This document shows, one piece after another, positions 53,113-55,624 of a DNA stretch of 64,000 nt. Numbering within the stretch: the first letter of the stretch is position 1; the number at the start of each line of letters is the position of its first letter. This DNA is from Streptomyces sp. NBC_00091. Its GTDB lineage: Bacteria; Actinomycetota; Actinomycetes; Streptomycetales; Streptomycetaceae. The notes beneath the pieces are model-generated. The model searched no databases. It was not told the origin of the DNA and worked only from the letters and a program-made list of their open reading frames with translations. A program made the translations under genes and the position numbers. The stretch lies in contig NZ_JAPEMA010000001.1 in the NCBI RefSeq assembly GCF_026343185.1, positions 992,001-1,056,000 on the forward strand, given 5' to 3'.

Positions 53113-53862
53113 GTGCTGCCGATCGACGTGGCGGCCCACGGCAGCCGCTGGCGGGGCCGCCATCCGCTGGAGAAGGCCCTGCTGGGGTTCGGGCTCACCC
53201 TCACCGCGGTCTGCCTGCCGCCGTGGCCCGGCGGGCCGTTGGTCGCCGCGGCGACGCTGGCGGTGCTGCTCGGTCCCGCCGGGGTGGCCGGGCGGCAGCT
53301 GTGGCGGGCCTTCCGGGTCCCGCTCGGCTTCTGTGTCACCGGGGCGCTGCCGCTGCTCGTCTCGGTGGGCGGCCCGGACGGGTTCCTCGCCCTGGCCCCG
53401 GACGGGCCCCGGCAGGCGGCGGAGCTGCTGCTGCGCACCTCGGCGGCCTCGCTCGGGGTGCTGCTGTTCGCCTTCACCACACCGGTCTCGGACGTGCTGC
53501 CCCGGCTGGTGCGGGCCGGGGTGCCGGCGCCGGTGGTGGACGTGGCCCTGGTCATGTACCGGATCGGCTTCCTGCTGCTGGACTCGATGGCGCAGGTCCG
53601 CCGCGCCCAGGCGGCCCGGCTCGGGCAGACCAGCCGGGCGGCGGTGTGGCGTTCGCTGGCGGGGCTCGCGGCGACCTCGTTCGTCCGGGCCTTCGACCGC
53701 GCGGCCCGGCTCCAGGAGGGGCTGGCGGGCCGCGGTTACGACGGCGCGCTGCGGGTGCTGATCCCGGAGGCGGCGCTGTCCCGGCGGTTCCTGACGGGGT
53801 CCGCCGCCCTGCTGACCGCCCTGGTCGCGGGGACCCTCGTACTGAAGGAGCTGTGGCTTTGA
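53113..53862 (+). CDS. cbiQ: cobalt ECF transporter T component CbiQ
   Basis: 249 aa, GTG 53113. Multi-helix transmembrane protein with the cytoplasmic coupling motif ARGYDG-like AARLQEGLAGRGYDGALRVL. It couples CbiM to the CbiO ATPase. Its TGA stop lies within the TTGAA (TTCAA on the other strand) end of a transposon relic inserted between cbiQ and cbiO; the C-terminus appears preserved. Confidence 0.95.
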   Translation: MLPIDVAAHGSRWRGRHPLEKALLGFGLTLTAVCLPPWPGGPLVAAATLAVLLGPAGVAGRQLWRAFRVPLGFCVTGALPLLVSVGGPDGFLALAPDGPRQAAELLLRTSAASLGVLLFAFTTPVSDVLPRLVRAGVPAPVVDVALVMYRIGFLLLDSMAQVRRAQAARLGQTSRAAVWRSLAGLAATSFVRAFDRAARLQEGLAGRGYDGALRVLIPEAALSRRFLTGSAALLTALVAGTLVLKELWL

Positions 53863-54135
53863 ATCCTCCCCCAGCCGAAGCAGAGGGATTCCTGGCTCAC
53901 GCCGCTCGGTCGCTCAGCGAGCGACCGAGTCTTCCACGATCAACACCAGCCGGGTTGAAACCAGCCCGGGTGTCTGAAGTTTCGGAGGTTGCTGTGCTGG
54001 CTTGGCTCTCGCTCAGCACGTCGTACGCGCTTGGTTCTCGCAACGCACGATATGGACTCTACCGAGCGGCCCTTCGCCCTGGGGGTCAAACACCGTTTCT
54101 TTCCCTCCTGCGCAGGAGTTCGATTCCTCGCCGGC
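53859..54135 (-). mobile_element. TnpB-less IS200/IS605-type element with omegaRNA-like right end
   Basis: A 277-base insertion, less G+C-rich than its flanks, without open reading frames. On the minus strand the right end shows an 11-base perfect hairpin (53905-53929) and a final imperfect hairpin GAATCC...GGATTCAA, which is how IS605-family TnpB guide RNAs (omegaRNAs) end. The left end carries a 14-base palindrome CTCCTGCGCAGGAG (54105-54118), and the flanking TTCAA (plus 54136-54140) matches the right terminal TTCAA (53859-53863). Removing the insert restores a tight cbiQ stop, AGGAGG and cbiO start. Confidence 0.75.
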
Positions 54136-54151
54136 TTGAAGGAGGTTGCCC

Positions 54152-55003
54152 GTGACCCCGTTGGTGGAGCTGGTCGGCGCGGGTTACGCGTACGAGGACG
54201 GCCCGGCGGTGCTGTCCGGGGTGGACTTCGGCATCGCCGAGGGCCGGGCGCTGGTGCTGCTGGGCCGCAACGGCAGCGGCAAGACCACGCTGATGCGGCT
54301 GCTGAGCGGGGGGCTGCGGCCCGGCTCGGGGGCGCTGCGCCTGGACGGCGCGGAGGTGGCGTACGACCGCAAGGGCCTGACCCGGCTGCGGACCTCGGTG
54401 CAGCTGGTGGTGCAGGACCCGGACGACCAGCTCTTCGCGGCCTCCGTCGAGCAGGACGTGTCCTTCGGCCCGATGAACCTGGGGCTCCCTGCGCCGGAGG
54501 TCCGCGAGCGGGTGGACTCGGCGCTGGCCGCGCTGGACATCACCGCGCTGCGGGACCGCCCGACGCACCTGCTGTCGTACGGGCAGCGCAAGCGCGCGGC
54601 GATCGCGGGCGCGGTGGCGATGGCGCCGCGGGTGCTGATCCTGGACGAGCCCACGGCCGGACTCGACCCGGACGGCCAGGAACGCCTCCTGGACGTCCTC
54701 GCGGGACTGCGGGCCGTCGGCACCACGGTGGTCATGGCCACCCACGACGTGGACCTCGCGGTCCGCTGGGCCGACGACGCGGCGGTCCTGACCCCGGCCG
54801 GCATCCGGGTGGGTCCCGCCGGGGTCCTCCTGTCGGATCCGGACCTGCTGGCCTCGGCGGGCCTGCGCCAGGCCTGGTCCCCCGCGGTGACGGCCTTCCT
54901 GCGCGCCCACGGCCTGCTGGCCCCGGACCTGCCCGGCCCCCGTGTCCCGCAGGCGCTGGCCGACTGGCCGCGAGCGGCCTCGCGGACCCGGCCGCAAACC
55001 TAG
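54152..55003 (+). CDS. cbiO: cobalt ECF transporter ATPase CbiO
   Basis: 283 aa from GTG 54152 with a perfect AAGGAGG seven bases upstream. Walker A GRNGSGKTTLMR, signature LLSYGQRKRAAIAGAVA, Walker B VLILDEPTAGLDPDG, H-loop TVVMATHDVDLA. It is separated from cbiQ by the transposon relic, so its supply may depend on read-through or on a promoter inside the insert. Confidence 0.96.
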   Translation: MTPLVELVGAGYAYEDGPAVLSGVDFGIAEGRALVLLGRNGSGKTTLMRLLSGGLRPGSGALRLDGAEVAYDRKGLTRLRTSVQLVVQDPDDQLFAASVEQDVSFGPMNLGLPAPEVRERVDSALAALDITALRDRPTHLLSYGQRKRAAIAGAVAMAPRVLILDEPTAGLDPDGQERLLDVLAGLRAVGTTVVMATHDVDLAVRWADDAAVLTPAGIRVGPAGVLLSDPDLLASAGLRQAWSPAVTAFLRAHGLLAPDLPGPRVPQALADWPRAASRTRPQT

Positions 55004-55012
55004 GATGTCCGC

Positions 55013-55624
55013 ATGTCGCTGCCGCACGCCATCCTCACCGCCCTGCTGGAGAAGCCCTCGTCGGGGCTGGAGCTGACCCGGCGGTTCGACAAGTCGATCG
55101 GCTACTTCTGGTCCGCGACGCACCAGCAGATCTACCGCGAGCTGGGGCGGCTGGAGGAGGCCGGGCTGATCCGGGCGCTGCCGAGCGAGGGGCCCGTGCG
55201 GGGGCAGAAGAAGGAGTACGAGGTCCTGCCCGACGGCGGCGCGGAGCTGGCGCGGTGGGTGGACGAGAGCCAGGACCCGAAGCCGATGCGGGACGCGCTG
55301 CTGCTGCGGATCCGCGCGGCGGCCGTGGTGGGACCGCAGCGGCTCGGGCCGGAGCTGCGGCGCCATCTGGAGCTGCACCGGGCGCAGTTGGCGACGTACG
55401 AGGCCATCGAGGCGAAGGACTTCCCGCCGGGGCGGGACACCGCCCCGGACCGGCTGCGCCGGCTGGTGCTGCACGGGGGGATCGCTCTGGAGAGCTTCTG
55501 GCTGAGCTGGCTGGAGGAGGCCCTGGGCGAGGTGGAGGACCTGAGCGGGGTGCAGGACCCGGGCGAGGTGCAGGACCCGAGCGGTGCGGAGGGCCTGGCG
55601 CCGCCGGAGGGCGGCGGGGCCTGA
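55013..55624 (+). CDS. PadR-family transcriptional regulator
   Basis: 203 aa. N-terminal winged helix (LPHAILTALLEKPSSGLELTRRFDKSIGYFWSATHQQIYRELGRLEEAGLI) and a C-terminal dimerisation helix domain. The end carries a short internal repeat (GVQDPGEVQDPSG). It starts 9 bases after cbiO, so it may be part of the cobalt operon; its target is unknown. Confidence 0.92.
   Translation: MSLPHAILTALLEKPSSGLELTRRFDKSIGYFWSATHQQIYRELGRLEEAGLIRALPSEGPVRGQKKEYEVLPDGGAELARWVDESQDPKPMRDALLLRIRAAAVVGPQRLGPELRRHLELHRAQLATYEAIEAKDFPPGRDTAPDRLRRLVLHGGIALESFWLSWLEEALGEVEDLSGVQDPGEVQDPSGAEGLAPPEGGGA

Follow-up and report, generated by a model that had tools for sequence, protein, structure and literature searches.

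The junction between cbiQ and the ABC ATPase gene that follows it, in the 64,000-nucleotide stretch of Streptomyces sp. NBC_00091 DNA analysed here (the window), contains a block of inserted DNA, and thereby raises the question of what that block is and how it could be accommodated where the stop codon of one gene normally forms part of the start codon of the next. The answer judged highly probable is that a TnpB-less mini-element resembling a PATE inserted at the GTGA that combines the cbiQ stop with the ABC ATPase start, and did so in a manner nearly invisible to translation.

The limits of the insert were established by comparison with the empty junctions of relatives. From 80 sampled cbiQ loci, nearly all of Streptomyces, 79 readable junctions were obtained (L176 ends before the stop), and in all 79 the TGA of cbiQ overlapped the start codon of the ABC ATPase gene, as GTGA in 62, ATGA in 16 and TTGA in one. 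In each case the frame that began at the overlapping start codon ran to 273 aa or more, with a Walker A motif recognised in 64 of the downstream frames and GRNGGGKTT present in the other 15. The covariance model described below matched none of the 80 loci, so that the element is absent there, and the same insertion was not found in any relative among them. An empty site was consequently available at every readable junction, and the insertion is later than the operon, as the original prediction had held. Set against these sites, the window junction reads ...GAGCTGTGGCT, then 53859-54151, then GTGACCCCG, which defines a minus-strand mini-element of 293 bp inserted next to GTGA (TCAC on the element strand); the empty junctions show no duplicated base, indicative of insertion without target duplication beside a fixed short target.

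The insert had initially been given as 277 bases flanked by TTCAA, the excision of which was thought to restore the cbiQ stop, an AGGAGG and a start codon. The insert is real, but that boundary falls 16 bp short of the true left end. Since the start codon of relatives overlaps the cbiQ stop directly, both the AGGAGG and the right-hand TTGAA belong inside the element, and the TTGAA taken as right flank corresponds to TGAAGG, the loop of the left-end hairpin in other copies. Excision of 277 bp would leave TTGAAGGAGGTTGCCC between the two genes, with a ribosome-binding site that the element itself had brought; TTCAA is likewise element sequence, and the true flank is GTGA/TCAC. Without the 293 bp, cbiQ ends LWL*, the same as with the insert, its last four bases (TTGA, 53859-53862) now being the right tip of the element. 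The subterminal palindrome of the left end, the 11-base hairpin and the right-end GAATCC...GGATTCAA arrangement were all present as first described (Table 1), as were the two flanking genes; the identity of the second is consistent with cbiO, PF00005 being its sole family match. The open reading frames between the two genes included neither a TnpA nor a TnpB frame, again as predicted. A PadR-type regulator gene (PF03551, PF10400) lies directly after cbiO, at window positions 55013-55624.

Table 1. Features of the cbiQ-ABC ATPase junction, in window coordinates.
Feature	Position	Strand	Basis or remark
cbiQ	53113..53862	+	PF02361, E 1.5e-46; ends CTG TGG CTT TGA, LWL*
Would-be guide, reverse complement of the cbiQ end	53839..53858	-	position past right tip; ISDra2 rule
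Whole mini-element	53859..54151	-	left end 54151, right end 53859; RNA read on minus strand
Right-end hairpin and tip, ...GGATTCAA	53859..53892	-	conserved in alignment A2; TTGA on plus strand
11-bp perfect stem, putative guide-RNA scaffold	53905..53929	-	helix 6; both-sided changes in 7 of 11 pairs
Invariant 5-bp hairpin, CCGGG...CCCGG	53950..53969	-	helix 3; never varies, hence neutral for covariation
Second tandem hairpin, loop GAGAGCCAA	53994..54019	-	helix 2; 97.9% of cells paired
First tandem hairpin, loop GAGAACCAA	54022..54049	-	helix 1; 72.2% of cells paired
Candidate -10 box for guide RNA, GGTAGAGT	54056..54063	-	GTA[AG]NNT motif
Subterminal 7+7 palindrome of left end	54105..54118	.	
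Left tip; tip-proximal hairpin half deleted	54119..54151	-	alignment A1 and fold
Shine-Dalgarno AAGGAGG in left tip	54139..54145	+	6 nt ahead of start codon
ABC ATPase gene, called cbiO	54152..55003	+	PF00005, E 1.9e-30; GTG start at 54152, as in relatives
Target flank GTGAC (GTCAC on element strand); expected transposon-associated motif	54152..54156	-	empty sites; [AG]TGA spacing

A DNA search with the 277-base query returned matches in 36 of 150 relatives, covering at least 266 of the 277 bases at one place in G041 (77%), four of five places in G025 (72-76%) and three of five places in G074 (70-73%). Many further matches spanned only about the first 111 query bases; those inspected were the right ends of longer elements, and the left end was also common to several. 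The right end, left end and structured RNA all match TnpB-encoding elements, in line with the IS200/IS605-type ends originally proposed: the three relatives' proteins tested each carried OrfB_IS605 and Cas12f1-like TNB domains (PF01385 and PF07282), and one of these proteins, when compared with PDB, matched an AI-designed nuclease (E 4.1e-30), the natural TnpB 8bf8 (E 1.3e-27) and also 8ex9, the last two entries presumably both being ISDra2 TnpB.

A covariance model (R1) built from 12 minis, the window copy among them, matched at least 106 of 246 Streptomyces genomes (E <= 1e-6), and gave 231.8 bits for positions 53859-54078 (minus strand) of the window, itself one of the training sequences. 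The model matches and earlier loci together yielded 140 copies, divided by match length into 74 short ones (including the window) and 66 of TnpB type, 49 of the latter appearing intact as judged by length and motifs. The right tip was TTGA in 138 of the 140, and the minis measured 217-344 nt over 17 aligned copies. They are short, contain no transposase gene, retain their ends and occur in several copies per genome (G025, for example), which are the attributes of a PATE or MITE; a TnpB element with its omegaRNA would encode TnpB, and the insert does not. On sequence grounds, the insert belongs, as a non-autonomous, PATE-like mini without tnpB, to an IS200/IS605-type TnpB family of Streptomyces. 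A Y1 TnpA (PF01797) was detected in only nine of 16 genomes searched, several carriers of copies being without one, and the search for a parent TnpA found a convincing copy of these ends at none of 20 TnpA loci (best 18.5 bits, mostly fragments).

A further gene of the TnpB-type elements, small and divergently oriented, encodes an Arc-like ribbon-helix-helix protein that may regulate tnpB; in L252 this gene lies between the left end and tnpB (52-residue piece, PF03869, E 8.8e-7). Similar stretches occur in L250, L253, L265 and L017, and a rough motif located the gene in 11 of the 66 TnpB-type copies.

A hand-set structure of 49 pairs, developed on 12 related sequences and guided in part by RNA energy rules and by the fold of the window itself, was paired in 90.9% of cells, with both-sided changes in 15 pairs, a figure reached by none of 500 shuffles (mean 9.8), while slid structures gave just 1-5 such pairs. 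This covariation over relatives constitutes strong evidence for the fold; folding of one sequence by itself carries little weight, a z of -1.89 having been obtained for the 277-nt minus strand, with five of 200 shuffles as good. Helix 2, the second tandem hairpin, contributed both-sided changes in three of its eight pairs, and helix 1, the first, was shifted by one base in four alignment rows. Application of the structure to tnpB copies was rejected as independent evidence: although 401 of 462 cells were paired, the structure slid by -2 still reached 0.72. Because G-U cells outnumber A-C cells (335 versus 86 over 74 aligned minis, the alignment having been fitted to the model), the RNA is more likely to be read from the minus strand, which is antisense to the operon. 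The right end read on that strand would be, in kind, the TnpB guide-RNA scaffold first suggested, its ends being shared with TnpB-bearing relatives.

The tandem hairpins of two-hairpin minis share a GAGARCCAA loop, and the loop sequence of the first also occurs in the zinc-finger codons of tnpB, where a short motif list recognised it in all 66 copies. By virtue of this common loop the minis resemble TnpB elements that have lost their interior and had one hairpin doubled; counted by the loop motif, 36 of the 74 have two hairpins, 30 have one, and none was recognised in eight. A GTA[AG]NNT box precedes the first hairpin in 44 of the 67 minis with the loop motif, and TAGAGT-like boxes are found shortly ahead of tnpB in several TnpB copies; the mini may have captured the tnpB promoter. 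A generic scan for promoters and terminators found nothing, no terminator-like site included, and the Rfam search gave no meaningful match, its one hit being a chance match to a miRNA model (E 1.9) in the neighbouring gene.

Of the 140 copies, 77 matched a left-end profile from which the flank had been left out, and 66 of these 77 had [AG]TGA 5-8 bases past the left-end block. The site test was conducted with a codon-usage score on 62 copies, one per locus, that had a GTGA target and enough flank, the other 78 being left out for want of a left-end block, GTGA or flank, or as repeated loci. A first control comprised all GTGA sites within the same flanks, with coding required to begin there. The target coincided with the start codon of a downstream gene in 30 of the 62 copies (control 76 of 1211), with the stop codon of an upstream gene in 24 (33 of 1211), and with both, as a stop/start junction, in 15 (9 of 1211). 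A second control, taken around cbiQ and itself rich in overlaps, gave 226 stops, 294 starts and 134 of both among 3833 sites, and Fisher p was <= 5e-9 for all comparisons. A naive expectation of 1/3 for the downstream reading frame was dropped since NTGA sites within genes already favour that frame (262 of 363 same-strand sites). Purging of harmful insertions would by itself account for the enrichment, and no seeking of start codons is claimed.

Of 33 copies with at least five Shine-Dalgarno bases in the left tip, 26 lie at starts, against eight of the 37 other copies, as judged by a simpler frame label applied alike to both groups; since tips so equipped lie mostly at starts, the left tip can, it appears, supply a ribosome-binding site. 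In the window, the element's AAGGAGG stands 6 nt before the GTG and the native AAGGAG at the end of cbiQ is now 293 bp further off, while the right tip TTGA replaces the TGA of the target, so that the cbiQ stop is renewed in frame and both proteins can probably still be made. A second class of left tip, CGCAAG, has no Shine-Dalgarno sequence and occurs among TnpB-type copies (L247, L263, L266, L276 and others); only three of 19 such copies were labelled as preceding an in-frame gene.

The same exchange of stop codons was encountered at a second junction, examined with a query that joined one mini to the end of the gene upstream of it, for which 273 of 295 genomes gave a match, mostly via the gene part. 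Among the best 30 loci, seven had the element after CT, 22 were empty (19 CTGTGA, three CTTTGA) and one was unreadable. Five of the insertions belong to one subtype with similar truncated left sides (L291-L295), and L296 and L298 look different, which suggests repeated insertion at one site, this junction ahead of an ATPase-like gene. The T of CTTTGA in L299, L301 and L314, where others have CTGTGA, could be chance (a TTG start) or the footprint of a lost element.

Seven sets of copies at the same junction, related by putative vertical descent, were compared for constraint, with four-fold degenerate sites of the upstream gene as the yardstick. The RNA part was more alike than those sites at the second junction (0.885 against 0.663, five genomes), at another (0.905 against 0.675, three genomes) and at a further one (0.916 against 0.681, two genomes). 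It was less so in the 'Glc' pair (0.648 against 0.781) and the 'L196' pair (0.935 against 0.974); the 'L199' pair (0.955 against 0.824) was also entered among those against purifying selection, and the 'GH' pair offered merely two usable four-fold sites. Past the RNA, identity dropped to 0.68 in the AAA set and to 0.68-0.76 in GH, the drop being unclear in the SCP2 and ABC sets (0.84-0.88), and copies from other loci could be as alike as those of one junction (for example, 0.93, the mean within the own set being 0.90). The evidence that copies unable to move are under purifying selection is accordingly suggestive only.

Several of these observations are also those expected of a passive MITE, whose fold is inherited from tnpB mRNA and DNA ends and which survives, idle, at harmless junctions where a ribosome-binding site is ready to hand. 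This explanation is a serious contender, if a shade below even. The enrichment at junctions would require just selection against damage, the 'Glc' pair falls below its four-fold sites, unrelated copies can equal same-junction ones in similarity, and the left hairpin of the window copy is broken: the right hairpin is intact, but one arm of the tip-proximal left hairpin, present in other copies, has been lost, as a consequence of which this copy is probably immobile. The term relic used in the original prediction therefore suits the window copy, but not a family that is widespread and structured. An idle sequence accords less well with RNA pairs that still covary in copies without tnpB, with wobble pairs placed on the RNA strand, and with an RNA part that exceeds four-fold identity at three junctions.

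Another explanation is an active, or recently active, guide RNA that would be loaded on the TnpB of other copies and direct the cutting of alleles without the insert, with homing or retention as the outcome. By the ISDra2 rule, in which the flank after the right tip is the guide (PMC8612924), the guide would read the end of cbiQ, as had been anticipated. TCAC together with the guide sequence is present only in the empty allele, and an outside TnpB would on that account cut chromosomes without the insert, much as has been proposed for ISDra2 and reported for plasmids. The scaffold is conserved and covaries in the absence of tnpB, the apparently intact TnpB-type copies are possible sources of nuclease, and cutting by TnpB is established both for empty sites of ISDra2 (PMC8612924) and as a plasmid drive (PMC11870625). 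Against this, only some sets of immobile copies show constraint, and the proposal is put forward as tentative, plausible yet well short of even. That the insert is a host regulatory element on the operon mRNA (an attenuator, riboswitch-like or antisense control of cobalt uptake) is most improbable: it does separate two genes of a metal-transport operon and hold the nearest Shine-Dalgarno sequence of the second, but the same family stands beside unrelated genes, is absent from the 79 readable cbiQ junctions, has no meaningful Rfam match or terminator-like site, and carries wobble pairs that favour the antisense strand.

Of the known systems compared with the PATE-like mini proposed here, HEARO RNA of IscB elements may likewise insert next to ATGA or GTGA; the mini matches no HEARO or other curated RNA in Rfam, and the nuclease of its relatives is TnpB. 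The closest printed case found is a PATE-like IS605 sequence of Halanaerobium hydrogeniformans (PMC7290912), described in the passages concerned as approximately 271 nt comprising the left-end hairpin, the last 58 nt of tnpB and the whole right end, likewise without a transposase gene. That sequence is a single copy, whereas the present minis extend across the genus as a family, target GTGA, have one hairpin in duplicate and bear tips that restore translation, and those passages mention neither start codons nor a guide RNA for it. ISDra2 resembles the mini in that its right end and the 3' end of tnpB form the reRNA (omegaRNA) with the flank as guide, in its target motif beside the left end and in its related TnpB, but differs in that the mini has neither tnpB nor tnpA and targets TCAC rather than TTGAT (PMC8612924). 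IStrons are similarly IS605-type elements harmless to the gene they interrupt, but they leave by splicing as group I introns (PMC4227781), whereas the mini ends would rebuild a stop and a ribosome-binding site without splicing. TldR guide-RNA regulators embody a similar idea, namely a TnpB-derived guide RNA kept for another use (PMC13418256), but no nuclease-dead TnpB is present in the insert or the adjoining window stretch examined. Titles and abstracts found in the open literature, the searching of which is no proof of absence, did not treat IS605 ends as carriers of Shine-Dalgarno sequences or as neutral at stop/start sites; as far as that literature was searched, what is new is the size of the family, the doubling of the hairpin and the ends that restore translation.

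The course of events envisaged is that a Y1 TnpA acting in trans would have moved the mini, which would have landed beside TCAC on the strand opposite to the operon. Both frames would remain whole, with the TGA renewed by the right tip TTGA, the GTG kept, and the Shine-Dalgarno sequence of the left tip at a usable distance. A minus-strand RNA might then be expressed from the -10-like box that resembles a tnpB promoter, and would carry the cbiQ end as its guide, which a TnpB from elsewhere could use to cut the empty allele. A broader proposition, that TnpB-free guide-RNA elements are widespread at stop/start overlaps in Streptomyces, with translation-restoring ends and a captured tnpB promoter, and are kept though immobile since their RNA serves the TnpB of other copies against empty alleles, is at present rather unlikely to hold as a whole.

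The locus shows that a transposon can occupy the tightest part of an operon with neither gene broken, the target being the translational overlap itself and the ends of the element rebuilding that overlap. Minis of this type are, in addition, a natural setting in which to ask whether a guide RNA that lacks a nuclease gene of its own can persist in trans.
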